From NCBI GenBank assembly GCA_964035545.1, contig OZ037770.1, positions 2,895,662-2,959,661 of the forward strand: DNA of 64,000 nt, given 5' to 3'. The notes under the pieces were generated by a model. It was not told where the DNA came from. It was given only the letters and a program-made list of their open reading frames with translations, and searched no databases. Each line of letters opens with the position of its first letter. The first letter of the stretch is position 1. This document shows, piece by piece, positions 10,101-30,006 of the stretch. This DNA is from Bugula neritina (Eukaryota; Bryozoa; Gymnolaemata; Cheilostomatida; Bugulidae). Made by a program: the position numbers and the translations under genes.

Positions 10101-11467
10101 AGTTTTCTATAGACTTAGGTACTAAGGCTAAACAATTGAATATAGAGAGAGCTAGTAGAGAGGTGAAAGGTGTTCATCCTGATATAGCTTCATGTTATCT
10201 CCAAGTTGGTGGAGTGTATCGAGATATGTGTCTTTATGATCAGGCTCTGCTTTATATGAACAGGTCATGTGACATGTATATTGCTGTACATGGGAAGACA
10301 AATCATGTAGATATAGCTCGTGCTTATAGTGAGCTTGGTACTGTGTATTACAGTATGGGTGAATATAGCAAGGCACTAGAATACTATACTAAGTCATTAG
10401 ATATGGAGCTAGCTATCTATGGCAGTGAGGCTACACATGCAGACATTGCTACTTCATATAACAATATTGGTCTTGTGTATAAGAGCATGGGTGAATATAG
10501 CAAGGCACTAGAATACCATACTAAGTCACTAGATATGTGCATAGCTATCTATGGCAGTGAGGCTACACATGCACACATTGCTACTTCATATAGCAATATT
10601 GGTCTTGTGTATGACAACATGGGTGAATATAGCAAGGCACTAGAATACCATACTAAGTCACTAGATATGTACATAGCTATCTATGGCAGTGAGGCTACAC
10701 ATGCAAGTATTGCTACTTCTTATAACAATATTGGTCTTGTGTATGACAACATGGGTGAATATAGCAAGGCACTAGAATACCATACTAAGTCACTAGATAT
10801 GTACATAGCTATCTATGGCAGTGAGGCTACACATGCAAGTATTGCTACTTCTTATAGCAATATTGGTAGTGTGTATAACAACATGGGTGAATATAGCAAG
10901 GCACTAGAATACCATACTAAGTCATTAGATATGGAGCTAGCTGTCTATGGCAGTGAGGCTACACATGCAGACATTGCTACTTCATATAGCAATATTGGTA
11001 GTGTGTATTACAACATGGGTGAATATAGCAAGGCACTAGAATACTATACTAAGTCATTAGATATGGAGCTAGTTGTCTATGGCAGTGAGGCTACACATTC
11101 AAGTATTGCTACTTCTTTTAACAATATTGGTAGAGTGTATGACAACATGAGTGAATATAGCAAGGCACTAGAATACCATACTAAGTCATTAGATATGATG
11201 CTAGCTGTCTATGGCAGTGAGGCTACACATGCAGACATTGCTACTTCTTATAATAATATTGGTTTTGTGTATACCCACATGAGTGAATATAGCAAGGCAC
11301 TAGAATACTATGAAAAGTGTCTAGTGATGGAGTTAGCTGTCTATGGCAGTGAGGCTACACATCCACACATTGCTAGTTCTTATAAACACATCAGTATTGC
11401 ATATAAGAAAATGGGTGAATATGGAAAAGCACAGGAGTACCAGCTGAAAGCAGATGCTATAAGCTGA
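7200..11467 (+). CDS. NTase-like / tetratricopeptide-repeat protein, copy 1
   Basis: Two exons, 7200-7298 and 7406-11467, joined in phase 0 (donor AAG/GTGTGT, acceptor TTTAG), giving 1386 residues. The start is the first ATG of a frame that is nearly identical in copy 2. Around residue 164 is a GSVARG...SDLE motif typical of the polymerase-beta-like nucleotidyltransferase fold (DUF294/GlnD type). A long helical middle follows, and from about residue 975 TPR units, ending in eight near-identical 44-residue units with the YGSEATH signature. TPRs usually bind protein partners, and the NTase-like domain could be catalytic or not; I infer a cytosolic scaffold or sensor, function unknown. No signal peptide or membrane segment seen. 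The copy 2 gene (51708-55701) has six such units and is otherwise the same length. Confidence 0.85.
10361..11420 (+). repeat. 132-bp coding tandem repeat (44-aa TPR units, eight copies)
   Basis: Eight units of 132 bp, each holding GAATATAGCAAGGCACTAGA and GGCAGTGAGGCTACACAT. Nucleotide identity between units is very high even at silent positions, pointing to recent unequal exchange or gene conversion. Copy 2 has six units. Confidence 0.95.
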
Positions 11468-12946: not shown

Positions 12947-13067
12947 TAATAGTCTATACATAGCGCTGAGACAGTCAACACACACATAAAATAAGATAAT
13001 TATCCAATCAACATCTACAATATGACTATCTCAGTATAACTGTTTCTCATTCAATTCTGACATTTCT

Positions 13068-13158
13068 GTTCTCTTCCTGTTTATTTTATCTCCTCTTCCT
13101 GTTTATTTTCTCTCCTCTTCCTGTTTATTTTCTCTCCTCTTTCTGTTTATTTTCTTCC
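13068..13158. repeat. Pyrimidine-rich minisatellite (about 20 bp)
   Basis: Four to five units of CTCTTCCTGTTTATTTT. Copy 2 has a longer version at 57206-57352. It lies just upstream of the partial TPR exon. Confidence 0.8.
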
Positions 13159-13228
13159 CTTCTCCAAAGTCATTACATTATCTCACCTTGTCTCTAGATA
13201 TGGCTAAAGCAATACATGGTGACAATAC

Positions 13229-13580
13229 TGTAGTGAGTAGTGCAAGTACAAATACAGGAATCGCCCTCTCCCTACTCTTGGAATACTTAGACTCTTATGT
13301 AGCAACCAATTAGCAGCTCCGGAAGATATGCTTCCGATTCACGTGACACTTCCCGGGTTATTAACATTATATCACGTTGTTGTAAGCGGAGGCTTGTAGT
13401 AGTAACATGTGTTAGTAGTTGACTCTTGTATAGGATAATTTGATGTGATGTTTGGTTTATGCTTTATTGTGGATAATAAATATAATTACTCGACAGCTAC
13501 CTTAGTAATTGATAACAGAATAACCAGCTAACTATACGCAAGTAAATAACTCACGCTCAGTAATTGCACAAATTACTACA
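13229..13580 (+). repeat. 5' LTR of element A
   Basis: 352 bp, TGTAGTGAGT...ATTACTACA. Contains a CGGAAG-ATATG-CTTCCG inverted repeat near 13319 and an AATAAA near 13475. I find no difference from the 3' LTR at 18136-18487. Confidence 0.95.
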
Positions 13581-13581
13581 G

Positions 13582-13599
13582 TGGTGGCAGCGGTGGGAT
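13582..13599 (+). other. Primer binding site, tRNA-Leu
   Basis: TGGTGGCAGCGGTGGGAT directly follows the LTR (one-base gap) and is complementary to the 3' end (with CCA) of animal cytosolic tRNA-Leu. The same site occurs in element B. Confidence 0.8.
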
Positions 13600-13615
13600 C
13601 TTGCGTATAGCAGTC

Positions 13616-14566
13616 ATGGCAGAAGACGGCACGGAGCTACCCATTCCACTGAATGAAGGTGAGAGAGATAATGTTGATATACCTATGGAACCAGTGGTGT
13701 TAGATGAAGAAGTGAGAATTCTTAAAGAGTATGGTGAAGACAGATACCGGATGAAGGCGCCCACCTTCGCAGGCGAAGAAGCAGTGGAGCAGTTTATCCA
13801 AATATTCCAAGATGTGATGGAGATTTCAGAGTGGCCGCCAAGGGTGGCGCTGCTCAAGCTCAGGATGGCGCTGACGGGCAAAGCTAAGCCGTACGGAGCG
13901 GGACCTGACATAGACGGAATCTTTGCTTCCCTGCGGGCCCGTTTTGGCATCTCTCCCATAGATGCGCGGGCCCGTCTACAGAGGATGCGGCGTGATCCTC
14001 ACACGTCACTAGAAGAGCACGCTGCCACGGTGTACCCACTAGCGCAGATTGCATTCCGCGATCTGCCTCCGGTACACCGTGAGAGGTATACTTATGATGC
14101 CTTCGTGCAGTCCATCAACGACTTGGGGCTCCACCATCAACTCCAAGCGAGGGGAGTCACCACAGTCGAAGATGCACTTGCGGTGGGAGAAGCCTACCTC
14201 TTGGCGACTCATATGCACCGCAACCGCGTGGCCTCCCGCCAGGTGACCACGGAGCACTCTACTGCTCACGCCGACTTAGACGCGGAACCCTCCGCGGTGG
14301 CTAATGTGAACCAGATGTCACTAGCGTCAAAAATCTCACAGATGACTGACATGCTAGATAAACTGGTCACCACATTAGCTTCCCCAAGCCAGGTAGATAC
14401 TGCCCGTGAGCCTAGCGGGCCGCAGGTACAATCACCAGGCATGGGGCACCACTTCTGCTGGGAATGCGGAAGGCCAGGACATTTCCAGAGAGACTGCCCT
14501 CAGCTCCCACAAGGGTTAAACTACCACGGCCCGCAGATGTTCCCACCTCCTGCGGGCCGTCTGTGA
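13616..14566 (+). CDS. gag: Gag polyprotein, element A
   Basis: 316 residues from the ATG at 13616. A retrotransposon-gag capsid-like region (about residues 50-210) precedes one CCHC zinc knuckle, CWECGRPGHFQRDC, near residue 282. It forms the particle and binds RNA. The frame is intact and homologous along its whole length to the gag of element B. A splice donor GAAG/GTGAGA lies 43 nt into the frame (13659) and appears to feed the 3' ORF. The 3' end overlaps pol, which is reached by -1 frameshifting. Confidence 0.92.
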   Translation: MAEDGTELPIPLNEGERDNVDIPMEPVVLDEEVRILKEYGEDRYRMKAPTFAGEEAVEQFIQIFQDVMEISEWPPRVALLKLRMALTGKAKPYGAGPDIDGIFASLRARFGISPIDARARLQRMRRDPHTSLEEHAATVYPLAQIAFRDLPPVHRERYTYDAFVQSINDLGLHHQLQARGVTTVEDALAVGEAYLLATHMHRNRVASRQVTTEHSTAHADLDAEPSAVANVNQMSLASKISQMTDMLDKLVTTLASPSQVDTAREPSGPQVQSPGMGHHFCWECGRPGHFQRDCPQLPQGLNYHGPQMFPPPAGRL

Positions 14567-16620
14567 ATCACCCAGGGAGGCCCGCGCGTCTGTCGCCCCG
14601 CTGGGCGCCGCGCGGAGATGCTGTGAAGTGGCGACCCCCGCGGCAAGTAGGCTCCAGCCACTCGCCACCTGGGTCCTCTACGCCACTCCGGCACCAACAC
14701 GGAACCGGCAGACGGTTGACCACAGAGCCTGCGAGGGAAACGGTACAGGCGCCGCAAGGCGTACCGCCCCAACCTCGGCAGCTGGTCAATAGTCGCCGCC
14801 AACCGTGGACCCCTCGACCCACAGCGAGGGAGGTGCAACCACGGCACACACAATTGCAGCCACACGGAAGTAGCTACTTCCTACCAGGAAAGCTAGCCGG
14901 CAAGCCTGCCAACTTCCTCCTGGACTCAGGCTGCACCACCAACCTCCTTAGCCGTCAGTTCTTTGACACCCTCAGCGCTAAGGTCAAGGACAGGTTGGCA
15001 CCGTATGAGGGGGATCATGGCACCCTGGCAGACGGGTCATGCATTCCCTTCTACGGCATTATTGAGCTAACTGGTTACGTCCGTAACCAGGCCATCCAAG
15101 AGACGTTTATCGTCGGGCAGCTCAACGAGGATGCTATCCTCGGGATGCCATTCTTACAACGACACGGTTGTCGCATCGATTTCAGTAAATCTGCGATGAT
15201 CATGGGCGACAAGGAGCTCGCTTGTGTCGATAAGTTTGGTCGTCCTTTAGCGGGAGCAGTGCAGGTAGTACGGAGCTGTACTATACCAGGCCACTCCCGG
15301 GCTACCGTCTGCTGCAAGGTAGACGGTGGCCAAACCTCTAAGTTGGGAGTTGTCGAAAGTACGCACTCGAGAGTCCAACTTGCCCATAGCTTTAGCCGGC
15401 TTACGGGACAAGGAGAGATCTCAGTGCAGTGTGTCAACCCCTTCTCAGAGACAGTAGACCTACCACCCAGATCCATGCTGGGTCGCTTCCATCCTGTCCA
15501 GGAGGAAGCCATTGGGCCGTCGTCGGGAGCTACGACGGAAGGTCCTCAGCAGAGCCCGTCTCGAGGGCGGAGGACCGTCCCAACCCACGCCTCCCCTTCT
15601 CCAGGGACGCGTGGCTGCACAGGCAACGGGAAGCGCCAGGCTATGGCTAGGTTGCCACATGGGTACAGTGAGGCGTTCAGCCACACAGACCACGGAGCCC
15701 GCCTAAATAGAGCAGGCTGCCGTGAGGTACCACGGGCGGCGAGGACCGCCCCTGCTCAGCTACTCCAACAGAGGGCTGACACGCCCCCGGAGGCTGCCCA
15801 GAGCCTCTGCGCCAAACCTGTATGGGCTGGTAACGTTAGGGAGCTGCCGAAGCTCCAGGAATGCCTTCCTGGGGTGGTAGCCGACGTGTACCGAGCGAAA
15901 CAGGAAGGGCGACGACCCAGTAGTACACAACGGCGACAGGGATGCGCCGAGTTACGGCTGTACTGTCAACGTTGGAGCTCTCTGCGGGTCGGGCCAGATG
16001 GTCTGCTAACCATGACCTTGGCCGCCAACAGCAGACAGCCAGCCAGGAAGAGGGTTGTCTGCCCAGTTGCCATCCGCCGGAAGTTGATACAAGACACCCA
16101 CGAGGAGACTCACGGAGGAGTCCAAGGGGTGGTCACCAAGCTACAACTCCGGTGGTACTGGCCTAACATGGAACGGGATATCCGACGCAGAGTGAGACGG
16201 TGCAAAGTCTGCCAGACCAACAAGCATAGCCGTCTCCCTGGTGAAGCGGGGCGGCAGACGCATTGTGCGAGAAGGTCTCGGCAGGCGGAGACTGTCAACC
16301 TGGCCGGAAACACCTCCATGACACGTCAGGAAGACTTGGCGAGGCGAGAAAGGCTACTTCCGTCCTTGAAAGTGCGCCCACCGCCCCCAACGTCAAGCCT
16401 GCCATCATCACCACTTCCGGAACCAGAAACAGGTCCGGAAGTGCAAAAACCCCCCGTGGGAGGGGCTCCGCAAGGAGATACCAACATAGGACCAGGACCA
16501 CACACTAGGCAACTTCCAGCGTGTCTCAGAGACTGTGTACGTGACCGCGGTATAAGCGGCAGTAACGAAAGTCTAGAGGCCTCGCATGAAAAAACAGGCA
16601 AAGAGCCGTGGGAGTTGTGA
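14464..16620 (+). CDS. pol: Truncated Pol of element A: protease and integrase zinc domain only
   Basis: Open frame of 718 codons in the -1 frame relative to gag; translation would enter near 14518. It has a retropepsin with an LLDSGCT active site (about residue 153) and the integrase HHCC zinc domain (CKVCQTNKH near residue 579), plus a Pro-rich tail. Compared with element B, about 450 residues of RT and RNase H are missing near 15760, and the integrase catalytic core plus GPY/F domain near 16310. Both junctions keep the frame. The product could mature Gag but not copy or insert DNA. Confidence 0.88.
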   Translation: MRKARTFPERLPSAPTRVKLPRPADVPTSCGPSVNHPGRPARLSPRWAPRGDAVKWRPPRQVGSSHSPPGSSTPLRHQHGTGRRLTTEPARETVQAPQGVPPQPRQLVNSRRQPWTPRPTAREVQPRHTQLQPHGSSYFLPGKLAGKPANFLLDSGCTTNLLSRQFFDTLSAKVKDRLAPYEGDHGTLADGSCIPFYGIIELTGYVRNQAIQETFIVGQLNEDAILGMPFLQRHGCRIDFSKSAMIMGDKELACVDKFGRPLAGAVQVVRSCTIPGHSRATVCCKVDGGQTSKLGVVESTHSRVQLAHSFSRLTGQGEISVQCVNPFSETVDLPPRSMLGRFHPVQEEAIGPSSGATTEGPQQSPSRGRRTVPTHASPSPGTRGCTGNGKRQAMARLPHGYSEAFSHTDHGARLNRAGCREVPRAARTAPAQLLQQRADTPPEAAQSLCAKPVWAGNVRELPKLQECLPGVVADVYRAKQEGRRPSSTQRRQGCAELRLYCQRWSSLRVGPDGLLTMTLAANSRQPARKRVVCPVAIRRKLIQDTHEETHGGVQGVVTKLQLRWYWPNMERDIRRRVRRCKVCQTNKHSRLPGEAGRQTHCARRSRQAETVNLAGNTSMTRQEDLARRERLLPSLKVRPPPPTSSLPSSPLPEPETGPEVQKPPVGGAPQGDTNIGPGPHTRQLPACLRDCVRDRGISGSNESLEASHEKTGKEPWEL
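14515..14558 (+). promoter_or_regulatory. -1 ribosomal frameshift signal, gag-pol of element A
   Basis: Slippery GTTAAAC at 14515-14521 sits in the gag frame as GGG TTA AAC. After a 6-nt spacer comes a 9-bp perfect stem, GGCCCGCAG (14528-14536) with CTGCGGGCC (14550-14558). The -1 frame continues straight into pol. GUUAAAC is a known slippery heptamer in arteriviruses. Element B has the same heptamer and a 7-bp version of the stem. Confidence 0.75.
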
Positions 16621-16771
16621 TCACCACAAAAATCTCAACTTTTGCCTCGGCGGAATCTCACACGAGATTCATCCGCTGGAAGTAAAAAGCCCTAGTCACG
16701 TTTCACAACCACGCTGTCCGGTCTTTTCCTATGTTGATGCAGTCGAGAGTAGACGTGCCAGTAAACAGTAA
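16586..16771 (+). CDS. Small conserved ORF between pol and 3' ORF, element A
   Basis: 61 codons, overlapping the end of pol in another frame. The last 50 or so residues match the ORF at 24196-24444 in element B, with a shared CxHHxNxNFCxGG start and an SRRxSKQ end, and both stop at the same place. Many differences fall at silent third positions, favouring coding over a structured RNA. No known family recognised. An untranslated control element is the alternative. Confidence 0.45.
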   Translation: MKKQAKSRGSCDHHKNLNFCLGGISHEIHPLEVKSPSHVSQPRCPVFSYVDAVESRRASKQ

Positions 16772-17078
16772 TCATTTACCACTCTCATTCCAAAATGTCT
16801 TACTATTCTGGATCGAAGGGTGTTAATTATGTTTTTGGTACGATAACTAGACTGCATCAGTCAGCTTAGCTACACTAGCTAGCTGGAGATTCGATAATGA
16901 TAAACAGTGGTGGGAATACACGTCGACTTTGATTTTAAATAATCTGCCATAGCGAGTGTGTTCTCCATCAACTATTCATTAGCCTGAATCTCACGAGTGT
17001 AACTGAACAGAGTACCGGTCAGGCTGTACACGCCGACGGTGCCTCAGTGTATAATCTTTAACACTGCTACTCTTTCAG

Positions 17079-17845
17079 ATCACACTCGAGTGACCACCTC
17101 CCGGTCACGGGACCAGCCAACCTCTCTGTCTATGGAAGAAGAGCCTGTAATGGAGAATGGCATACCCGTAGTGCTCCGCCGACGACACCGTTGGGTGTCA
17201 CCCACGACAGAGAGGAGAATTGAAGAAGCCTGGGGACCCAGTGGACCACACCGAACCTGCCAGGTCTGCTTTGAGGAGTGCCCGTCACACCGCTCCCTGC
17301 GTTTACATGTAGACGCCCATTTCCTACTCCACTTCTGTCCCTGCGGGTTCCACGACGTCTACCCGTATCCCGTGACAGTACATAAGCTAAGCTGCTTCGC
17401 CGGAGAGAACCACACTGTTGATGAAGACAGTTTCCCCCTATACCTGGATGCCATCAAGCCAGTCATCAGGAAGGCTATCACCCTGGCCGCACTAACGTCA
17501 GGGTTTCACGTACTGCTACTATCTGCCCGCCATAAGTCCCCTATGGTTCAGGGCCCACCTCCTACCCCCGTCAACCCTAGCAACACCCCAGAAGTAGAAG
17601 AAACAACAATATCCCCTCTAACGGAGACCACTACAACCCCACCAAGGCCTAGCCAGCTGGCTAACGTAGAAGAGCGGCTTATGAGACTACAAGCCGAGTT
17701 CACACAACTTGCCCCTGACCTGCTGGATACGACGACAGGTCTATACCAGTTGAAGGACTCAGTGGGGCGACTGAAGAGGCGGCTACGGGCCCGACAGGCT
17801 CGACACAGAGCATGGTCGCTACAAGAATCAGAGTCCAACCAATGA
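17079..17845 (+). CDS. Spliced 3' ORF, zinc-finger/coiled-coil accessory protein, element A
   Basis: The exon starts after CTTTCAG at 17078 and would join the 43-nt leader 13616-13658, which starts at the gag ATG, in phase 1, for 269 residues. Around C74/C77/H90/H94 (numbering from 17039) is a C2H2 finger with CX2CX12HX3H spacing. A second Cys/His set follows, CPC...H-x3-C. A Pro/Thr-rich linker and a Leu-rich, then Arg-rich C-terminal helix suggest a coiled coil and nucleic-acid binding. It occupies the env position but has no signal peptide or membrane segment. Homologous to 23094-23881 in element B. Function unknown; a nuclear or RNA-binding role is inference. An ATG at 17132 offers an unspliced start here, but element B has none. 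Confidence 0.75.
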
Positions 17846-18120
17846 GAATGCCTGGGGTAGGCACCTTCGTTGAGCGATACTCGTTTGGAATGTGACGAGC
17901 GCTCCGACATTGGCCCGCGTGCTGGTAAGCACCCTCTCTCTTAATAGCTGACTAGATGTGTGTGATCGATCACCCTGTTGTCTTCTAATGTAAACGTTGT
18001 CGTGCTCAACTATTTCTTTTCTTACTCTTTGTGGGTTTACTTATGTATGTTTTTCTTTTTGGATTATTGTATGGTTTTTCATTATGTTTTTTTATTGTGT
18101 TATCAGAAAGTAGGGCTTTC

Positions 18121-18135
18121 TGCTGGGGGGGACGG
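18121..18135 (+). other. Polypurine tract, element A
   Basis: The G-rich run TGCTGGGGGGGACGG abuts the 3' LTR and is the likely plus-strand primer. Element B has the related CTGGTGGGGGCGG. Confidence 0.7.
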
Positions 18136-18487
18136 TGTAGTGAGTAGTGCAAGTACAAATACAGGAATCGCCCTCTCCCTACTCTTGGAATACTTAGACT
18201 CTTATGTAGCAACCAATTAGCAGCTCCGGAAGATATGCTTCCGATTCACGTGACACTTCCCGGGTTATTAACATTATATCACGTTGTTGTAAGCGGAGGC
18301 TTGTAGTAGTAACATGTGTTAGTAGTTGACTCTTGTATAGGATAATTTGATGTGATGTTTGGTTTATGCTTTATTGTGGATAATAAATATAATTACTCGA
18401 CAGCTACCTTAGTAATTGATAACAGAATAACCAGCTAACTATACGCAAGTAAATAACTCACGCTCAGTAATTGCACAAATTACTACA
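18136..18487 (+). repeat. 3' LTR of element A
   Basis: 352 bp, reading the same as 13229-13580. It is followed directly by the second ATAC target copy and the resumed TPR exon. Confidence 0.95.
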
Positions 18488-18780
18488 ATACCACTCACAT
18501 AGCTATAGCACACACCTACCATAGACTGGGTAGACTGTATCATAACACAGGTCAATATACACACTCAGTACACTGCTATAACATGGCCCTGGTACAGAGA
18601 GATAGGTGTAATACTGCTCATCTCCCTCTATATACAGCTGTGTTAGTCAGTTTCTCTCAGACTATGATCTCGTTGTCAGACTACAAACACGCTAAGGGTC
18701 TCCTACTACTCGCTCTCAAACATTCACCTACTGACTACTGTAAGGATACTCAGGCTGGTATCTGTCAATTCTTAGGATAG

Positions 18781-19168
18781 TGTTGTCTCCACTTACATCA
18801 GTACAGGAAGTGTTGGAAATATTTTATATGACGCCCTAAAATAACTTCAAATTGAAAACATAAATAAAAAATTAAAAAATGAAGTTATCCTCCTTTAACA
18901 AAGATAATTAAAATACAGCAAATAAAATAATTATTTAACAGATTACTGGAAATATAAAAAGTTGGTAAATTATTTTTAGTTTCCTGAAATAATTAAACTG
19001 TGAAAAAGTTTCAGTTTGAGCCAATGCAGATTAGGAGACTCAGTTGCATAGTATTTGCTTAGAAAATATCCAAGTAATATTTTAAAGTAGCACCCAACGT
19101 GTAAATGATATATTCCATTTATAAAAAACCATATTAATGCTGCAAGTTTCCATAAACCGCAGTCTCTT
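18781..19168. other. Convergent intergenic sequence
   Basis: AT-rich spacer between the partial TPR gene and the oxygenase-like gene on the other strand. Relative to copy 2 about 0.6 kb (57750-58390) is missing at about 18824, removing the rest of the TPR frame. Nothing else recognised. Confidence 0.6.
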
Positions 19169-19619
19169 CTACTGGAGTTGTCGTTCTTTAAAAGTAGAGT
19201 GTATTTTCTGTTTCAGCCATTCATGCATAGTGACAGGGGGGTACTTAGAACGCCCCACTAGACATTCTATTAGTGTGGTCTGGTCTGGAGTAGCAAAGAA
19301 TGGGATAGAAACTCTGTCAGCCTCCTGCAGGTGCATGTCATCTGACACCAACACTCGGTGCTTCTGAAAAACATAAACAGTTTTCAAGGAACAAAGAAAA
19401 TAGTTCATGAAAATACTGCATTCTACAAATTTTAAGTCAAATTTGACTTTCTTCCATCAGAGTTTTTCTACAAAAATGCAACAAAGCAAAGCATTAACTA
19501 TATTCACAGCAAAAATATTATGTTTATTACAGAGACAAGGTTACCAGTTGAGTAGCTTTTCAATAAAGTAACATAACCTGGTAGAACCTGCTTGCTGTGC
19601 TTTTTGTAACTATCAACTA

Positions 19620-20247
19620 CTTAGCGTGACATCACTAGTTAGTATGACATCACAAGTTAGCCTAGGGCCACACGGTGCGTATTTTCGCATGCGAAAATTG
19701 AAATCACAAGTAGCGTCAGTGATGCGTGATAAATAAAGCTTTCATTTTTAAATCGCACTCGCTTTCAATAAAACGCAACTTACTGGAATGTAGCACTAAA
19801 ATAAAGAAATTGGGCTCGCTGAATAACTACCAGCCAGTTAGGTGACGACGACAGAGACGATTTGCACTTGCGTTGAAAATGCTGAGCGACAAGTGCGAAG
19901 GTTTTCTCAACGCGCACAGTGGACACCTTTGCTACTTGTGATTTCAATTTTCGCATACGAAAATACGCACCGTGTGGCCCTAGGCTTAGTGTGACATCAC
20001 TAGTTAATGTGACATCACTAGTTAGTATGACATCACTAGTTAATGTGACATCACTAGTTAGTATGACATCACTAGTTAGTGTGACATCACTAGTTAGTAT
20101 GACATCACTAGTTAGTGTGACATCACTAGTTAGTGTGACATCACTAGTTAGTGTGACATCTCTAGTTAGTATGACATCACTAGTTAGTGTGACATCACTA
20201 GTTGGTATGACATCACTAGTTTGTGTGACATCACTAGTTAGTATGAC
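19620..20247. repeat. 18-bp minisatellite in oxygenase intron, interrupted by MITE
   Basis: Units of GTGACATCACTAGTTAGT, many alternating G/A at the first base, so partly 36-bp dimers. The MITE at 19660-19985 sits inside it. Copy 2 has a longer uninterrupted array at 59222-59870. Confidence 0.9.
19660..19985. mobile_element. MITE (PIF/Harbinger-like), copy 1-specific
   Basis: 326 bp, same terminal inverted repeats as 12603-12946 but the inner part is in the opposite orientation. TTA on both sides (19657-19659, 19986-19988) comes from the AGTTAGT of a minisatellite unit. Absent from copy 2, so this family moved after the duplication. Confidence 0.85.
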
Positions 20248-22221: not shown

Positions 22222-22501
22222 CTAAATATCAACAAAGGTAAATAAGCTAACTTGGTGGATGAGATACGAAATAAGTTGGCTGAACACAAACTTGAAACCT
22301 TTTCTAAAAAGTAACAAATACATGAATTAGAGAATTTGACTCTTGAAATTAAACAAGGTGATACTTTGCTTAGATACTTGCTTAGACCTAGTGATTAGTT
22401 GCTACCATTACGCAATAGGTATAATTGTCATGATGCCTAATGGCATTCCGCATTCATAATAATAATAATAATCAACATTATCATATTGGTAATGTGAATA
22501 T
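22222..22501. other. Spacer upstream of oxygenase-like gene
   Basis: AT-rich. Homologous to about 61981-62045 and 62944-63190 in copy 2, which flank the LINE fragment. No promoter motif or gene recognised. Confidence 0.5.
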
Positions 22502-22806
22502 TGTTAAGATTTTCAGTTTTAGGGTTGATGTGCTATCCAGAGAGTCTATTTATTTACTATAGAACTGCACCAGGATAAGTCGAGTGAACGAGTATATTTT
22601 ACACACAACTATACATTATAAAAACGATACATTATTTCCAAACAAGTTACACATCTAATCTATTTCACACTCTAGCTTCGACTGAGTTAGCAGCGGGAAA
22701 CTACAATTGCTGCTAACTATCAACTACGCTAATTGGCTATCCATTGTTCCGGGTCAATTACGCGACCCTACATGTTGTGCTGCTGGTAGTTCCACGAACC
22801 ACCACA
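22502..22806 (-). repeat. 3' LTR of element B
   Basis: 305 bp. On the plus strand TGTTAAGATT...CGAACCACCACA. No difference from 29702-30006 seen. Confidence 0.95.
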
Positions 22807-22823
22807 CCGCCCCCACCAGCAGA
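22807..22823 (-). other. Polypurine tract, element B
   Basis: On the minus strand CTGCTGGTGGGGGCGG lies directly inside the 3' LTR. It corresponds to the tract of element A. Confidence 0.7.
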
Positions 22824-23093
22824 AAGCCATCTTTCTGATATATATATATAAAAACATTCAATAGTAATTGCATACATCAGTGGACAAAATAATACATAAT
22901 ATACAGGAAGAGACATAATAATAGGCAGAGTCATTATAACGATCCGTTGCATACAATTGGCCAGCTGTAGATAGACGAGGAATACTAGCTAGCTGTAGTA
23001 TTAGACAAGGAATAACCTGTCTAGCAGTTAAACATTTGCACGATCTTGGTTCCTCACAAGATGTGAAGTTGCGGAGTATTCTGGGTAGCCTAA

Positions 23094-23881
23094 CTAGAGT
23101 CCTTGTTGGGCACGCCGGTGCTTGGCTTGGCATGTACGCAGTTTCCGTTTCATACGGCATACGGATCCCTTTAGCTGGAAGAGTCCGGTTGTAGTGTTAA
23201 GTAGATCTGGTGCCAGCTGGGTGAATTCTTCTTGTAATCGCAGGAGGCGTTCTTCTACTGTGGCTAGGCGGACTGGGTCGGGGGACGGTGTCCGTCTGTG
23301 GCGCAAGGGTGGACTGGGGGACCTGGTTCGTCTCTTCGCCGGGGTAGGGGAGATCTCTCCTTCTTCTGGATATGTAGTTTCCTCGGGGGTGTATGTAATT
23401 TGAGGGCGGTCAGACACCAACGGGGATTGTTGGCGGGCGTTGTCTAACACACGTTGGAACCCCGAGGACAGAACGGCTAATAGCATGGCCTTCTTCACCA
23501 GAGGTCGTATAAGTGTGAGGAACTCCGGGTATAGCTTAGCGTCGACCACGTAGTTTTCTCCAGGGAAACAGCCCGCCGCTCTGTGTCTGGTGACGGGGTA
23601 GGGATACACATCATTGTACCCGCAGGGGCAGAATGTCAGTAGGAGATGAGCATTGACGTGTAGTTTAAGGGAGCGGTGAGAGGCGCAATCTTCACCACAG
23701 ATCTGGCATCTCGTCCGTCCTCTGGACCCCCAGGCTGTTTCTATTTCTTCTTCTGTTTGTGGAGACACCCACCGCCAACGGCGGCGTAGTGGCTCAGGCC
23801 GGTCACCACTAGCATACTCCTCTGGATACGGAGCGGGAAGTGTTCTATCCCGTACCCTGGTTGTAGCGGGTCGAGTGTAAT
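23094..23881 (-). CDS. Spliced 3' ORF, zinc-finger/coiled-coil accessory protein, element B
   Basis: The exon begins after TTTTTCAG (23882-23884 on the plus strand) and would join the leader 29628-29670 at the gag ATG in phase 1, giving 276 residues. No ATG occurs in this frame before the zinc finger, so a spliced start is needed. It has CX2CX12HX3H (CQIC...HVNAH) and a second CPC...H...C set, a Pro-rich middle and a Leu- and Arg-rich C-terminal helix, as in element A. The two proteins look about half identical, best around the fingers. No env features. Not a family I recognise. Confidence 0.78.
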
Positions 23882-24195
23882 CTGAAAAAGTTTCAACAGT
23901 GTTAATACAGTACACTGCTGTGTTGTCAGCTTGAACAGCTTGGCAACTCCTAATTCAGTTACCTCGTAGAGATTTATGGTAGTGAATAGTCAGATAGAAC
24001 ACGTATTGCAATGAGATTATAAAAATCTCTAAGTCAAACTGAGTTCTTACTACGGTATTTCACTAACCTATCTCCAGCTCGATTGACTCAGTGAGTCAGA
24101 GCTGAGCGATGCAATCTAGTTTCGTATTAAGATATAGTTAACTCACCCCACGATCTGTTGTCGTAAGACATACTGAATGTGTGAAATGGTTTGAA

Positions 24196-24444
24196 CTACT
24201 GCTTAGAAACACGTCTACTCCTGACTGCATCAGCGTATGAAAAGATCGAGCAACGTGGTTGGGGTGCGTGATTAAGACTTTGTGCACCCGGCGGATGAAT
24301 TTTATTTCTATTTCCGCCGATGCAAAAGTTGATATTTCCGTGGTGTTGACAACTCCCACATTTGCTCGATTCTTTTCTCGTACGGTTTTCCCCTAGACTT
24401 TCATGCGTGCCGCTTTTAACGCAGTCACATACGAAGTCCTTCAA
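24196..24444 (-). CDS. Small conserved ORF between pol and 3' ORF, element B
   Basis: 82 codons overlapping the last codons of pol. The C-terminal 50 residues match 16586-16771 of element A, with the same CxHHxNxNFCxGG and SRRxSKQ ends. The N-terminal 30 residues have no counterpart in element A, where the frame opens later. Function unknown. Confidence 0.45.
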   Translation of the reverse strand: MKDFVCDCVKSGTHESLGENRTRKESSKCGSCQHHGNINFCIGGNRNKIHPPGAQSLNHAPQPRCSIFSYADAVRSRRVSKQ

Positions 24445-27400
24445 TTATGCGGGGGGTTGCCTCGTACGCTGTCCCCTTTCTAGGGGGGGGTGACACGCTT
24501 GCCGGTTCGTTAGTAGGGGCCTCTAATGGCGTCTCTACTTCGCCGTCAGCAGTCACCTCTTCTTGTTCTCCGGATGGAGCCCCTCCCTCCGTGGGGGTTT
24601 GCACTTCCGGAACCGGCTCGGTTTCTGGAAGTGATGGAATTAGACTTGGCGGTGGCGGACACGCTTCTGTTGACAAAAGCTGCCGCTCCTCTCTCACCAA
24701 GTTTTCTTCCCGCGGTATGACCACTTCGTATTCAGGTCCATGCCGCCGTCGCCCGCGCGTTGTTGTCTGCCTCCTGGGCTCTAACAACGGGGGGGCTTCT
24801 CCCACTCCGCCGGGGCTAGCCCAATACGGTTTCAAGCGAGACTCATTCTGGATAGATACCTGTCCTGAGCGCTCAATCTTGTACGTATGATTAGGCATAG
24901 CCTCGACAACCACGTAGGGGCCCACGAACTTAGGCTTCAGCTTATCAGCCTGTCCGCGGCGCCTACGGTAATTGACCATCCACACCTTATCTCCCCTCTG
25001 ATAGAGGGGTGGTTCATCGGAATCTTCGTGCCGCACCTTCCACTGCTGTTGGCGCAGTATATCGTGTGCGGCCTTCATCCGTTCCACTAGTTCACTGGCA
25101 TACTCGTGGACTGAGTTATCTTGCTCTGGAACGTGATAGGTGAGATGGTCGGGGACACGAGTCTCTCTCCCGAGCATCAAGAGGTTTGGGGTCTCGCCAG
25201 TACTGGTGTGTGGGGTGCTACGGTATGCACGCATGACTTGCGGCAACACCGTATCCCATTCCTCTTGACCTCGTCCAAGGAGGAGACTCCGGAGTGCATC
25301 ACCTAGCATCCGGTTGTTGCGCTCCACCACCCCGTTACCTTGAGGGTGGTAGGGGGTGGTCCTGCTCTGATTTACTCCCCAGAGGCGGCAAAGGTCGCTC
25401 ATCAGTTGAGACTGGAATTGAGCGCCTTGATCAGAGTGTATCTGTTCGGGGAGCCCAAAATAACAGAATACATGTTGGTCTAGCGCCCTGGCCACTGTTG
25501 GGGCTGATGCATCTGGGATAGCCAGAGCATCCGCCCACCTAGTAAAGTGGTCGGTTAGTACTAGGATCCAATTATTGCCTCTGGGGGTCAGGGGCATGGG
25601 TCCGACCAGGTCTACAGCGACTACTTGCCAGGGCCTACCAGCGTATAGCCTCCGCCGTCCTGCTTCACCAGGGGGGCGGCTATGCTTACTGGCCTGGCAG
25701 ATCTCACACTGTTTGACTCTGAGCCGGACATCACGCTCCATTTGTGGCCAATACCACCGAAGTCGTAATTTGGACATCACTCGCTTGACCCCTGCGTGGG
25801 CCTGTTTGTGAGTATCCCAAATCAACTCACGGCGGATGGCTGTGGGGCAGACCACCCTCTTCCTTTCCGGGTGTCTGCCGCTGGCAGCTAGAGAGATGGT
25901 TAGTAACCCATCCTGCCCGATCCGCAGCGAGTCCCAACGCTGACAGTATAGCCGGAACTCGGCGCATCCCTGTCGTATGCGTTCCTCGCTGGGTCGTCGC
26001 CCTTCCCTTTTGGCCTGGTATATGTCTGCCACGACTCCAGGCAGCTCTTCTTGGAGCTTCTTCAGCTCTCGAACATTACCGGCCAGTACAGGGTTGGCGC
26101 GGAGGTTTTGTACATCCTCCGGGGACTCATCAACTCTTTGCCTGAGTTGACCTTGATCCCAGTCAAACGGTGCTCCGTGATGAGCCAGCGTCTCCAACTC
26201 GCATCGTGGGGGACCTCCATCCCTCCTCTCGATGTTGAGACACTGTTTGCAACCTCCGTCAGATCGACGACTCAACCCATCCGCATTGCTGTGTCTCTTG
26301 CCCGGTCGATGTTCGATCCGGTATGAGAATTCAGCTAGGATTTCGAGCCACCTGGCGACCTGACTAGAGGGCTCTGCTCTCCTGCACAACCAGATCAGCG
26401 AGGCATGATCCGTACGCAGCCGGAACTTCCTGCCATATAGGTATGGTCTGAAGTGCTTCACTGACTTGATTACTGCCAGCAGCTCCTTGCGGGTAGTGCA
26501 GTAATTTCGTTCAGCGGGTGAGAGAGACTTGCTGTAGTAGGCTACTACTACCTCTCGGCCTTCCTGCACTTGTGACAGCACAGCGCCAACATTCTGGTCA
26601 CTGGCGTCCGTGTCTAGGATGTACTCCAGAGTGGGGTCTGGGTAGGCCAAGATGGGCGCCGTTAGTAGGCAGCCCTTGAGGCGGTCGAACGCTTCTTGTT
26701 CGACTGGAGTCCACTGCCACGTCACTCCCTTTGCGGTGAGCCGGTTTAACGGCTGGGCTATGCCCGCAAAGTCTGGTATGTATTGCCTGTAATACCCTAC
26801 CAGCCCCAAGAAAGCCCGGAGTCCGGTCAAGTCTTGGGGGGTGACCCAGTCTTCTACTGCCCGTACCTTTTCGGGATCCGTTGCCACGCCGTTTCGACCG
26901 ACAACGTGCCCCAGGTACTTGACCTCCGGCTGCAATAGAGCGCACTTGGAAGGTTTGAGCTTAAGACCGGCACCTCGGAGTCTCTCGAAAACCTCCTGCA
27001 GACGACTGACATGTGTCTCAAAGTCTGGAGAGATTACGATGACATCATCGAGGTAGACCAGCAGTGTCTTCCAATGGAGTCCGCTAAGGACTTGTTCCAT
27101 CAGCCTCTGGAAGGTGGCTGGGGCGGAGGTTAACCCGAAGGGCAGCACCTTCCACTTCCACAAACCGTCCCGTGTGATAAACGCCGCTTTCTCTTGGGCG
27201 TCGGGACTCAGAGGAACCTGCCAATAGCCGCTTAGCAAGTCTAACGTACTGAAGTACTTGCTGCCGGCTAGGGCGTCCAATGACTCGTCAATACGAGGTA
27301 GAGGGTAGGCGTCCTGTATGGTTACGCTATTGAGTTTGCGGTAGTCCACACAGAACCGCCAACTGCCGTCTTTTTTCCGGACCAGTACGACTGGCGAGCT

Positions 27401-28828
27401 CCACGCACTATGGGCGGGCTCTATCAGTCCCCGGTCCAGAAGATCCCGTACTTGTCGGCTAACCTCCTTCTCTTTCTCCGGCCCCAGCCTGCGCGTGGGC
27501 TGCCGGACAGGGACTGTCCCTGCAGTCAGCGGTATTTCGTGTCTGACAATTCCAGTCAGTCCCACGTCATGCTCTCCGCTGCTGAACACATCACCGTAGT
27601 CGCGTAGTAACTTAGCCATAGCTTGGCGTTCCCTGTTACTCGCGCAGCCGCCACTGGCTGTTTCATATAACTCCCGGAGATGTGTTGGGACTGCCCCTCG
27701 TCCCTGAATAGGGTGTCGAGGGAGTGCCTCTGTCGCATCATCCAGCGACGGGCCTACGTCTCCCTCCTGAACAGAGTGAAAACGGCCCAGCATCGACCCA
27801 GCCGGGAGCTTGATAGGCTCGGTAAAGGGGTTGACGCACTGCACTAAGATCTCCCCTTGCTCAGTCAGCTGATTCAGACTGCTGGCAAGTTGGATCTTTT
27901 CGTGCGCGCTTTCAACCACCCCGAGTCCAGAGATCCGGCTACTATTCACCCTGCAGTGAATGGTAGCCCGGGAGCGGCCTGGTATGGTACGGTTGCGTAC
28001 CACTTGCACACCTCCCACTAAAGGGCGGCCGAACTTGTCGACGCAGGCGAGTTCCCGCCCGGACATCATCATTGCAGATCTGCTAAAATCTATGTGACAT
28101 CCGTGCCGTTTAAGGAACGGCATCCCGAGGATAGCATCCTCCTTGAGCTGACTGACGATGAACGTCTCTTGGATCGTTTGATCGCGGACTCGTCCCGTCA
28201 GCTCAATTATACCATAGAAGGGAAGGCACGACCCGTCAGCTAGGGTGCCGTATTCCCCTTCGTATGCTTCCATCTCGCCCCTGACCCTAGCACTGAGGGT
28301 GTCGAAGAGTTGGCGGCTTAAGAGGTTTGTGGTACAGCCCGAATCAATGAGAAAAGTAACAGCTTTGCCTTCCAGTTTACCGGGCAAGAAATAGCTGTTC
28401 CCATGGGGCTGCACCTGAACTCTCCCTTCAGGCCTTACTCTCGCAGGGAGTACCTCCCTCGCTTTGGGTCGCGAAGGAGGTCTCTTGGGGCGGTGATAGG
28501 TAGGCCTCGGGGGTGCCGAGGCTAGATTCTCAGCTACCTTTGTGTGCTCCCATCCAGATTCTTGGACTTGTAGTCCTGTGAATCTGTTGTGAAGGGGCAT
28601 AGAAAAGGCAGCCGCGGGGCGAAGCCCCTTGCTGGTCCGTCGTGGCTGTTGCCACTGTTGGTTGCCAGTACGCGGTACCCGTCTGGGTGACCTGCGTTTC
28701 TTCTTCCCTGGAGGTTTCATCGTCGGCCCGCGGAAGGTGGGAACATCTGCGGGCCGCGGTAGTTTAACCCCTGATTTAGGAAGGGACAATATCGGCGGAA
28801 ATGTCCTTGGTTTCCGCATTCCCAGCAA
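24425..28828 (-). CDS. pol: Pol polyprotein of element B
   Basis: 1467-codon open frame; translation would enter by -1 frameshift near 28765. Domain order: retropepsin (IDSGCT near residue 160), reverse transcriptase (FCVDYRKLN; catalytic YLDD near 591), RNase H (DTDAS, then RTDH), integrase HHCC zinc domain (CEICQASKH near 1045), integrase core with D1071, D1132 and E1168 (approximate), and a GPY/F-type module (KFVGPY). This order (RNase H before integrase) defines Ty3/Gypsy. No lesion seen. It supplies all enzymes element A lacks and could mobilise it, though LTR differences make that uncertain. Confidence 0.96.
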   Translation of the reverse strand: MLGMRKPRTFPPILSLPKSGVKLPRPADVPTFRGPTMKPPGKKKRRSPRRVPRTGNQQWQQPRRTSKGLRPAAAFSMPLHNRFTGLQVQESGWEHTKVAENLASAPPRPTYHRPKRPPSRPKAREVLPARVRPEGRVQVQPHGNSYFLPGKLEGKAVTFLIDSGCTTNLLSRQLFDTLSARVRGEMEAYEGEYGTLADGSCLPFYGIIELTGRVRDQTIQETFIVSQLKEDAILGMPFLKRHGCHIDFSRSAMMMSGRELACVDKFGRPLVGGVQVVRNRTIPGRSRATIHCRVNSSRISGLGVVESAHEKIQLASSLNQLTEQGEILVQCVNPFTEPIKLPAGSMLGRFHSVQEGDVGPSLDDATEALPRHPIQGRGAVPTHLRELYETASGGCASNRERQAMAKLLRDYGDVFSSGEHDVGLTGIVRHEIPLTAGTVPVRQPTRRLGPEKEKEVSRQVRDLLDRGLIEPAHSAWSSPVVLVRKKDGSWRFCVDYRKLNSVTIQDAYPLPRIDESLDALAGSKYFSTLDLLSGYWQVPLSPDAQEKAAFITRDGLWKWKVLPFGLTSAPATFQRLMEQVLSGLHWKTLLVYLDDVIVISPDFETHVSRLQEVFERLRGAGLKLKPSKCALLQPEVKYLGHVVGRNGVATDPEKVRAVEDWVTPQDLTGLRAFLGLVGYYRQYIPDFAGIAQPLNRLTAKGVTWQWTPVEQEAFDRLKGCLLTAPILAYPDPTLEYILDTDASDQNVGAVLSQVQEGREVVVAYYSKSLSPAERNYCTTRKELLAVIKSVKHFRPYLYGRKFRLRTDHASLIWLCRRAEPSSQVARWLEILAEFSYRIEHRPGKRHSNADGLSRRSDGGCKQCLNIERRDGGPPRCELETLAHHGAPFDWDQGQLRQRVDESPEDVQNLRANPVLAGNVRELKKLQEELPGVVADIYQAKREGRRPSEERIRQGCAEFRLYCQRWDSLRIGQDGLLTISLAASGRHPERKRVVCPTAIRRELIWDTHKQAHAGVKRVMSKLRLRWYWPQMERDVRLRVKQCEICQASKHSRPPGEAGRRRLYAGRPWQVVAVDLVGPMPLTPRGNNWILVLTDHFTRWADALAIPDASAPTVARALDQHVFCYFGLPEQIHSDQGAQFQSQLMSDLCRLWGVNQSRTTPYHPQGNGVVERNNRMLGDALRSLLLGRGQEEWDTVLPQVMRAYRSTPHTSTGETPNLLMLGRETRVPDHLTYHVPEQDNSVHEYASELVERMKAAHDILRQQQWKVRHEDSDEPPLYQRGDKVWMVNYRRRRGQADKLKPKFVGPYVVVEAMPNHTYKIERSGQVSIQNESRLKPYWASPGGVGEAPPLLEPRRQTTTRGRRRHGPEYEVVIPREENLVREERQLLSTEACPPPPSLIPSLPETEPVPEVQTPTEGGAPSGEQEEVTADGEVETPLEAPTNEPASVSPPPRKGTAYEATPRIIEGLRM

Positions 28829-29670
28829 AAACTGACTGTTTCTCCCTGTGGCGGCGCCGATGGCCGCATGGGCTCAGGGGCGGTACTCACTGGGTTTTGT
28901 GGTGTCAGTGTTGCTATCAGCTTGGCTAGCATGTCCGTCAGTTGAGTGACTTTTGATGCCGTCGCCAACTGGGACACGGCAGCCGCGGCGGGGGTTTCCT
29001 CCCCTTGTCCCGCGGCCGCGTCTGCGCGGTCTATCTCCACTTGGCGGGAGCTTCCGCGGCTTTTATGCATTTGATTAGCTAGGAGGTAAGCTTCCCCCTC
29101 AGTCAGAGCATCTTCAACGGTGGTGACTCCCCTAGCTAGAAACTGGTGGTGGAGACCCAGATCGTCGACAGATGCTATGAAAGCGTCGAGGGTGTACCTC
29201 TCGCGGTTGACTGGGGGCAAGTCGCTGTACGCGATCTGTGCCAGCTTCATGACCGCGGCGGCATGCTCCCGCAGCGGGGTGCGGGGGTCACGCCGCAACC
29301 TCTGCAATCGGGCCCTGGCATCTGTAGCAGAGAGGCCAAAGCGGGCCCGCAGAGAAGCAAAGATATTATCAATGTCTACGCCCAGCCCATAGGGCTTGGC
29401 TTTGTCCATCAATGCCATTCTAAGCTTCAGCAAGGCCACCCTAGGGGGCCACTGAGCGACGTCCATTACGTCGCTAAACTCTTGGATAAATTGTTCCACC
29501 TCCTCTTCACCCGTGAAGGTGGGCGCCTTTAACCTGTAGCGGTCCTCAGCTAGTTCTCGCGGAACCCTTCGCTCTTCTACTACATGGTTAACAGGCATTG
29601 TCTCTACAGCATTGTCTCTACGCTCACCTTCGATTGCCGGTGGTTGAGTTCCAGCATTTTCAGTCTCCAT
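28717..29670 (-). CDS. gag: Gag polyprotein, element B
   Basis: 317 residues from the ATG at 29670. Capsid-like gag domain and one zinc knuckle CWECGNQGHFRRYC near residue 283. Homologous end to end with element A gag. A splice donor GAAG/GTGAGC lies 43 nt into the frame, the same distance as in element A. The 3' end overlaps pol by about 110 nt. Confidence 0.93.
   Translation of the reverse strand: METENAGTQPPAIEGERRDNAVETMPVNHVVEERRVPRELAEDRYRLKAPTFTGEEEVEQFIQEFSDVMDVAQWPPRVALLKLRMALMDKAKPYGLGVDIDNIFASLRARFGLSATDARARLQRLRRDPRTPLREHAAAVMKLAQIAYSDLPPVNRERYTLDAFIASVDDLGLHHQFLARGVTTVEDALTEGEAYLLANQMHKSRGSSRQVEIDRADAAAGQGEETPAAAAVSQLATASKVTQLTDMLAKLIATLTPQNPVSTAPEPMRPSAPPQGETVSFCWECGNQGHFRRYCPFLNQGLNYRGPQMFPPSAGRR
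28725..28768 (-). promoter_or_regulatory. -1 ribosomal frameshift signal, gag-pol of element B
   Basis: GTTAAAC (28762-28768 on the plus strand) followed after 6 nt by a stem GGCCCGC/GCGGGCC (28749-28755 with 28725-28731). Position relative to the gag stop and the frame change match element A. Confidence 0.72.
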
Positions 29671-29682
29671 CTTGGATGCACT

Positions 29683-29700
29683 ATCCCACCGCTGCCACCA
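29683..29700 (-). other. Primer binding site, tRNA-Leu, element B
   Basis: On the minus strand TGGTGGCAGCGGTGGGAT, one base inside the 5' LTR. Same site as element A. Confidence 0.8.
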
Positions 29701-29701
29701 C

Positions 29702-30006
29702 TGTTAAGATTTTCAGTTTTAGGGTTGATGTGCTATCCAGAGAGTCTATTTATTTACTATAGAACTGCACCAGGATAAGTCGAGTGAACGAGTATATTTT
29801 ACACACAACTATACATTATAAAAACGATACATTATTTCCAAACAAGTTACACATCTAATCTATTTCACACTCTAGCTTCGACTGAGTTAGCAGCGGGAAA
29901 CTACAATTGCTGCTAACTATCAACTACGCTAATTGGCTATCCATTGTTCCGGGTCAATTACGCGACCCTACATGTTGTGCTGCTGGTAGTTCCACGAACC
30001 ACCACA
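29702..30006 (-). repeat. 5' LTR of element B
   Basis: 305 bp. On the minus strand it begins TGTGGTGGTTCG and ends ATCTTAACA, and includes an AATAAA. Matches 22502-22806 base for base as far as I can read. Confidence 0.95.

Follow-up and report, generated by a model that had tools for sequence, protein, structure and literature searches.

A zinc-finger protein spliced from the gag start codon in LTR retrotransposons of Bugula neritina, with a putative role in the export of unspliced RNA

Spliced RNA gives rise to HIV-1 Rev, a protein with a basic helix, and the RRE sits inside an intron; Rec, Rex and Rem are grouped with Rev as proteins that bind folded RNA in transcripts whose splicing is incomplete. 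Rev binds the RRE, a folded element of incompletely spliced HIV-1 RNA (PMC11599104). Among LTR retrotransposons, Cer1 of C. elegans produces CERV, a spliced protein that is needed for export of the genomic RNA and has a possible zinc finger and leucine zipper (PMC10309623). A spliced subgenomic RNA serves the third ORF of Drosophila errantiviruses of the ZAM, springer and Idefix subclades, with an upstream exon that in Idefix and its kin lies within gag (PMC12992720). The ORF3s of bdelloid rotifer LTR elements (GDSL, DEDDy, coiled coil) are non-envelope and typically expressed from spliced messages (PMC5408684).

Here we describe two LTR-flanked elements, A and B, within 64,000 nucleotides of B. 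neritina DNA (hereafter, the window), in which a zinc-finger protein is predicted to be spliced from the gag start. Like CERV, it would be an LTR-element accessory protein made from spliced RNA, with N-terminal peptides in common with Gag (PMC10309623). Compared by description, CERV differs in having 517 amino acids, five exons, a possible C4 finger and a G-like domain (PMC10309623), whereas the A/B protein comes from two exons, opens with a leader of 14 codons, carries two fingers and ends in a basic helix. Export is established for CERV only, and is putative for the A/B protein. As to homology with CERV, general searches of PDB sequences, PDB folds and viral folds came back empty, our structure model being of modest confidence (pLDDT 63). 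No homology was found with HIV-1 Rev or the Rec, Rex and Rem group, from which the A/B protein also differs by its zinc fingers; its RNA binding and export activity are putative. The env of these errantiviruses is a fusion glycoprotein with a signal peptide and a membrane helix, in contrast with the soluble zinc-finger product of A and B. The rotifer ORF3s belong to other protein families, and the word “zinc” occurs 0 times in PMC5408684.

Layout of the elements and their splice sites

Element B (22502-30006, minus strand) has the features of a Ty3/gypsy LTR retrotransposon: LTRs, a PBS, gag, a pol with protease, RT, RNase H and integrase in that order, and a short target duplication (ATAT). 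Its 5′ LTR (29702..30006) and 3′ LTR (22502..22806) are identical, 305 nt long, and enclose gag (28717..29670), pol (24425..28828) and a 3′ ORF (23094..23881, 788 nt). Element A (13229-18487, plus strand) carries LTRs of 352 nt (13229..13580 and 18136..18487) that are identical over the first 344 nt compared, the last 8 nt also reading alike, and is flanked by the 4-bp target duplication ATAC. Its gag (13616..14566) encodes a CCHC knuckle near the C-terminus. The first-pass annotation had treated A as a complete element, a view that does not hold: its pol ORF (14464..16620) gave protease-like and integrase H2C2 matches only, and neither an RT nor an RNase H nor the core of an integrase was detected in it. 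Element A is therefore a deletion derivative. A piece of its pol (16237-16617) was aligned with 16 A copies, and each of the 16 shows an indel relative to the copy in the window. Beyond the content of the first-pass annotation, the locus includes a structured RNA at the intron end, a hairpin at the acceptor and the lack of RT in element A.

In element A, exon 1 (13616..13658) consists of the gag ATG and leader, 43 nt in all, and ends at the donor GAAG|GTGAGA; the intron starts with GTGAGA at 13659, and its acceptor, CTCTTTCAG, ends at 17078. Joining exon 1 to exon 2 (17079..17845) gives 43 + 767 nt, or 270 codons with a sole stop at the end. Exon 1 of element B (29628..29670, minus strand, ATG at 29670) is likewise followed by a donor, GAAG|GTGAGC, after 29628, with the acceptor TTTTTCAG before 23881; the joined exons (43 + 788 nt) make 277 codons including the stop, in the same phase as in A. 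The sequence thus bears out the donor exactly 43 nt past the gag ATG and the in-phase acceptor that had been proposed for both. The proposal that the B ORF needs such a leader also stands, as its exon 2 has no in-frame Met before residue 132, which is already past the zinc finger; in A, a Met at residue 18 precedes the finger. A and B had been assigned to different families. They are indeed diverged but still relatives, with amino acid identities of 61% in gag and 54% in the 3′ ORF, and the common donor position is in part a matter of homology.

The recurrence of this donor goes beyond chance. Over the 128 kb that the two strands of the window make up, the motif AAGGTRAG turns up 8 times. A PBS-anchored ATG with a 43-nt exon ending in GAAG|GTGA was found at 301 genomic sites, compared with 0 for the reversed pattern; when exon length was relaxed to 29-57 nt the sites numbered 320, so that 301 of 320 lie at exactly 43 nt and the leader is kept in other copies. 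The same is true of the splice sites: among 20 fetched A copies the donor is GT in 19 and GC in one, and the acceptor is kept in all 20. Thirty further loci, read in one orientation, yielded 13 readable acceptors, all intact. Three families, A, B and a third one, C, agree in donor, acceptor and phase.

A genomic copy of a spliced RNA

A member of family C, L059, has the structure LTR, PBS, ATG plus 43 nt, exon 2, LTR, and its exon 1 runs into exon 2 precisely where splicing was predicted. Unspliced relatives of L059 carry GAAG|GTGARG and CTTRCAG|ATCAC in 10 of the 10 sequences fetched. A second fused ORF is found in the database protein P0018, whose N-terminus is the same fused peptide. Read from DNA, L059 and its unspliced relatives present an errantivirus-like spliced third ORF with a donor near the gag start. 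No spliced copy of A or B was found in the genome within 3 mismatches, the single match being L059 itself.

Random deletion was considered as the origin of L059 and rejected, as both ends fall exactly on the splice sites of the 10 relatives. The junction ends have the bases AG in common; a deletion through this microhomology is formally possible, and would need to strike by chance at these two places. A clear target duplication was not seen by eye. Judged by its sequence, L059 is an LTR-flanked genomic copy of a spliced RNA. Splicing from the gag start to the 3′ ORF can thus be regarded as close to proven in these elements from their genomic record: shown for family C and, by implication, strongly implied for A and B.

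The 3′ ORF protein and the RNA at the intron end

The spliced products, 261 to 276 residues long, start with the 14 codons of the Gag leader and go on to two zinc fingers and, at the C-terminus, a basic helix; exon 2 of A encodes the C2H2 and C2HC fingers, a helical core and the C-terminal helix. The C2H2 finger and second Cys/His cluster described earlier are upheld by an alignment of 52 sequences, in which the ligands C60, C63, H76, H80, C86, C88, H101 and C105 are at least 90% conserved; the C2H2 spacing C-x2-C-x12-H-x3-H is conserved too. The last 25 residues have a net charge of +6 to +10 in four sequences. The structure model shows a long C-terminal helix, the first half of which is of low confidence. 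No convincing known family was recovered by Pfam, NCBIfam, PDB sequence, PDB fold or viral fold searches; in IMG/VR viral contigs 14 stretches fit the peptide pattern and 0 were confirmed. Members of the two-finger family were encountered only here, in the B. neritina genome, and among unnamed database proteins.

Among 20 A copies, picked by ORF3 similarity, pN/pS in the 3′ ORF exon is 0.17 and stop codons are found in none, which indicates that this ORF is under purifying selection. No transmembrane helix was detected: in four sequences the highest 19-residue hydropathy is 0.9-1.5. An envelope or membrane protein was discarded as a candidate, since the product has neither a membrane helix nor an envelope match and its third ORF does not resemble a fusion glycoprotein. 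With L059, P0018, three families, purifying selection and the lack of a membrane helix, the central claim of the first-pass annotation, a spliced non-envelope protein that starts at the gag ATG, is well supported.

The last ~480 nt of the intron (16601..17078 in A; 23882..24370, minus strand, in B) are non-coding, with stops in all frames, and are conserved between A and B. Their identity is 65.7%, against 42% for shuffles and 34-50% at third codon positions of ORF3, gag and protease; as gag and protease reach 64.7% and 73.3% over the whole region, and third positions of a short integrase piece 55%, the intron end is distinct only with respect to ORF3 and most third positions. It folds with a z of -5.5 in both elements, and gag-pol windows go down to -7.5, so that folding energy alone does not make it special. 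Folds computed independently for A and B (160 and 151 pairs) have 57 exact pairs in common, 8 of them changed on both sides. In the core, with its stem 16736-16744/16850-16858 in A and 24231-24223/24116-24108 in B, 5 pairs are changed on both sides, a value reached by 0 of 500 shuffles; the covariation is based on essentially two independent families. For A and B, then, the comparison reveals a trait of Rev/RRE-type systems, a folded RNA that is conserved and lies within the intron alone. No Rfam family reached the gathering score in window positions 13000-30300.

Directly upstream of the acceptor of A lies a hairpin, CAGTGT-N10-ACACTG (17045..17066), which appears to contain a branch-point-like sequence. 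Hairpin plus acceptor were matched at 235 genomic sites, and the control at 0. The core stem pattern, allowing up to 3 mismatches, was found at 315 places (reversed control, 8); all 100 matches listed were exact and say nothing about family C. In a single pattern test, the A/B core was found at 0 sites at the matching distance before family C acceptors, a negative result that counts against the generality of the core.

A putative export factor and its alternatives

A regulatory role in the nucleus or in RNA selection may be proposed for the 3′ ORF protein. More specifically, we see about an even chance that it is a Rev- or CERV-like factor exporting unspliced RNA from the nucleus. The primary transcript would have two fates. 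Left unspliced, it would serve both as the genome and as the message for Gag and Gag-Pol; once the segment between the donor, 43 nt into gag, and the acceptor downstream of pol is removed, it would encode the two-finger protein. This protein would enter the nucleus and bind the folded RNA at the intron 3′ end, kept by the unspliced RNA only, and would either export that RNA or protect it from the spliceosome. The export role would parallel that of Rev for HIV-1 and CERV for Cer1, and the hairpin over the branch-point region of the acceptor may hold splicing inefficient. A bolder and more tentative proposal is an independent Rev/RRE-type system in Ty3/gypsy, in which the two-finger protein recognises the covarying folded RNA that closes the single large intron and escorts unspliced genomic RNA from the nucleus, and RT-less derivatives keep it to stay mobile.

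The conserved ligands of the tandem C2H2/C2HC fingers and their classical C2H2 spacing could also belong to a DNA- or chromatin-binding regulator that acts on the LTR or on host DNA in transcription, anti-silencing or integration guidance. The long C-terminal helix, in spite of its low-confidence first half, could dimerise, and purifying selection among A copies fits as well. We regard this as rather unlikely, because the fingers are atypical by profile (Pfam zf-C2H2, PF00096, scores 13.5 bits in B against a gathering cut-off of 25.2, E 0.1, and has no match in A), and because the conserved intronic RNA is left unexplained. That RNA has traits that would also suit a packaging signal favouring unspliced RNA, and the protein might then serve, inside the particle or alongside Gag, as a nucleic-acid chaperone or as a factor for RNA selection. 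The leader peptide common to Gag agrees with this, and so does the finding of one spliced copy versus 235 unspliced acceptor sites, which suggests that spliced RNA is rarely reverse transcribed; scarce spliced copies could, however, also reflect low levels of spliced RNA. Besides, a stretch of 14 common residues is short for an interaction with Gag, and A already possesses, in its Gag, a CCHC knuckle that passes the Pfam cut-off (that of B scores below), so that we consider this role unlikely.

The Gag start in common would also suit a factor by which the element limits its own copy number, and spliced RNA would compete with genomic RNA. Deletion derivatives should lose such a restrictor, yet the exon is open in all 20 of the ORF3-picked A copies, which makes restriction very unlikely. 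Hardly credible, finally, is the view that the ORF encodes an envelope or cell-transfer protein that has decayed or is of an unusual kind: its position and spliced expression are like those of errantivirus env (PMC12992720), but the four sequences lack any membrane-type hydrophobic stretch, their zinc ligands and basic helix taking its place, and no envelope match was obtained.

For export of unspliced RNA by LTR retrotransposons with splice sites, we found a literature account for Cer1 only. A new zinc-finger accessory protein, a genomic record of splicing and a candidate intronic target RNA allow the export question to be put to the test in a further lineage. Such factors, if the export reading is true, would have arisen repeatedly in LTR elements, outside the vertebrate retroviruses.

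Splice sites and make-up of the two elements

Reading of both sequences bore out the first-pass annotation, which had placed a splice donor 43 nt into gag, and an acceptor that yields an in-phase joined reading frame, in two LTR retrotransposons: element A (13229-18487, plus strand) and element B (22502-30006, minus strand). On the plus strand, the gag ATG of element A lies at 13616, the donor GAAG/GTGAGA is found 43 nt downstream of it, the acceptor CTCTTTCAG ends at 17078, and exon 2 extends as far as 17845. On the minus strand, the donor of element B keeps both the 43-nt distance from the gag ATG and the phase. The joined frames, here called ORF3, comprise 270 codons in A and 277 in B, each with a single, terminal stop.

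Both elements are recent insertions, as their LTR pairs are identical (352 nt in A, 344 nt compared by computation and the last 8 read in the sequence; 305 nt in B) and 4-bp target duplications are present (ATAC in A, ATAT in B). Profile searches matched the pol of B to protease, RT, RNase H and integrase, and that of A to a protease-like region and the integrase zinc-domain only. Element A has the appearance of a deletion derivative without RT, and we infer that its RT and integrase must come from another element. In 20 fetched copies of A (both LTRs listed for 19, a single LTR match for one) the LTRs lie 4.9 to 5.0 kb apart; because this spacing equals that of the window copy, the other copies probably lack RT too. 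Element A has many near-identical copies, in which gag, the protease region and the zinc-finger ORF are mostly open. Its primer-binding site (PBS), TGGTGGCAGCGGTGGGA at 13582-13598, matches a leucine tRNA at its 3' end; no tRNA genes were found within the window. Between A and B, at 19919-20291, an array in which an 18-nt unit repeats about 14 times overlaps a 121-codon ORF. A 1350-codon ORF at 7415-11467 contains many TPR repeats, ends in similar 132-nt units and matches DUF294, a putative nucleotidyltransferase, at its N-terminus.

Splice sites across the genome and a copy of spliced RNA

The 43-nt leader, whose conservation in other copies had been proposed as a check, proved widespread. 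In the 216 Mb genome, the PBS-anchored pattern ATG-N36-GAAG/GTGA occurs at 301 places, and at 320 when the gap may vary from 22 to 50; the reversed control pattern gave 0 in both cases. The donor position is fixed. Among 100 listed matches several length classes are found, including 76 nt (B), 80 nt (A) and 79 nt (found in C, a third family); 78 nt is frequent and suggests one more family. Members of the 78-nt class (e.g., C1:4070356-4070433) have the PBS of the other elements and a donor at exactly 43 nt. In the 20 copies of A, the donor reads GTGAGA in 19 and GCGAGA in one, and the acceptor is CTCTTTCAG/ATCAC in all.

With up to 3 mismatches tolerated, a 25-nt junction probe built from A had a single match in the whole genome, locus L059 (reversed control, none). 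On the minus strand, this locus consists of an LTR, PBS, ATG, 43 nt and then exon 2, with no intron between them, and closes with another LTR. Identity between its two LTRs is 98.6%, and the fused ORF runs for 261 codons up to the stop. Its exon 1 recurs elsewhere in the genome (40 of 188 candidates scored). Ten of these places, selected for a related ORF3 downstream, were fetched at the donor and acceptor: since all ten carry GAAG/GTGARG and CTTRCAG/ATCAC, L059 is a retrocopy of spliced RNA from family C. Hence, the DNA itself records that family C RNA was spliced at these positions, and the sites are conserved in A, B and C. Reverse transcription of spliced RNA is rare, as a C-type junction probe matches only L059 in the genome and a B-type probe has no genomic match. 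The same fusion opens a database protein, P0018 (MAEEGTELPIPRNE-DHTRLTN; source jgi, longest contig 5320 bases), whose contig may be genomic or RNA-derived. Of 120 listed relatives, 34 have a start that matches the search motif, and P0018 alone among these showed the fused leader.

A constrained zinc-finger protein

The protein is under constraint. A dN/dS below 1 in the 3' ORF had been proposed as a check, and exon 2 of A, open in 20/20 copies, gave a pairwise pN/pS of 0.17 in a sample that is biased towards intact ORFs because it was picked among good ORF3 matches. The value is about 0.15 for changes common to copies and about 0.44 for private ones. In the same 20 copies, gag has a pN/pS of 0.34 and is frameshifted in one copy and interrupted by a stop in another; pol ranges from 0.19 to 0.61 across four scorable pieces. 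Of A-B, B-C and A-C, dS could be estimated for A-C alone, where ORF3 shows a dN/dS of about 0.16 with dS near saturation.

Relatives numbered 134 from the A query and 165 from a profile (best 8000 candidates scored); the 120 listed each time come from jgi, ena or lgn and have neither a protein name nor a Pfam domain. In the suggested Pfam search, ORF3 of A had no match, and that of B only sub-threshold ones, zinc fingers among them. Across 52 aligned sequences, ligands C60, C63, H76, H80, C86, C88, H101 and C105 are at least 90% conserved; their spacing is C-x2-C-x12-H-x3-H in the first finger and C-x-C-x12-H-x3-C in the second. The predicted model (mean pLDDT 63) is better in the fingers (about 21-90), core helices (about 111-150) and C-terminal end (221-254); the first part of a long predicted helix (192-253) is unreliable. 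Fold searches with this model gave no match at E 0.001. In four sequences hydropathy revealed no membrane helix, in agreement with the earlier view that the product is not an envelope, and the last 25 residues have a net charge of +6 to +10. This arginine-rich end is reminiscent of the RNA-binding helices of the type found in Rev, the HIV-1 RNA export protein. Among open-licence papers, we found none describing the ORF3 protein.

Structured RNA at the intron end and a possible role in export

The stretch of ~480 nt from pol to the acceptor has stops in all frames in A and B, and its folding is conserved between them. Identity there is 310/472 aligned positions (20 shuffles: mean 42%, maximum 45.6%), clearly above ORF3 (55%; third positions 34%) and above third positions of gag (48%), protease (50%) and a 56-codon integrase piece (55%), and roughly equal to gag at all positions (65%; protease 73%, integrase piece 71%). 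Folding reaches z -5.5 in each element, with 0/100 shuffles as good. The independently computed folds have 57 exact pairs in common, including 8 with substitutions on both sides; none were common in ten shifted controls, and permuted substitutions gave p 0.012 and 0.003. In a 130-nt core, 5 pairs are changed on both sides (0/500 shuffles; slid controls 0 to 2), in a structure drawn from the same alignment and with covariation that rests on the A/B split, as five of six rows are A-type. The core pattern was not found upstream of family C acceptors. Windows of gag-pol also fold strongly (z to -7.5), and those of ORF3 do not. Most windows of gag-pol RNA (13813-16692; 24543-29582) beat dinucleotide shuffles, unlike the zinc-finger exon and 3' UTR.

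A hairpin, CAGTGT...ACACTG, lies 12-15 nt before the intron end in A, B and 9/10 C copies (one of the nine through a G-U pair; a single stem base is altered in the tenth). The hairpin plus acceptor pattern occurs at 235 genomic places (control, 0). As it overlaps a branch-point-like sequence, the hairpin may slow splicing.

Third ORFs of other kinds are known. That of Drosophila errantiviruses is spliced as here, in one subclade from an upstream exon inside gag, but encodes an envelope (PMC12992720); rotifer LTR elements have other, non-envelope third ORFs (PMC5408684), and 412-type elements a short transmembrane protein (PMC11952523). The ORF3 protein would be nuclear, would bind the folded RNA of the intron end, and might help unspliced RNA to exit the nucleus or to escape splicing. 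The precedent for such an export role is CERV, which the C. elegans element Cer1 makes from spliced RNA and requires for the export of its genomic RNA (PMC10309623).
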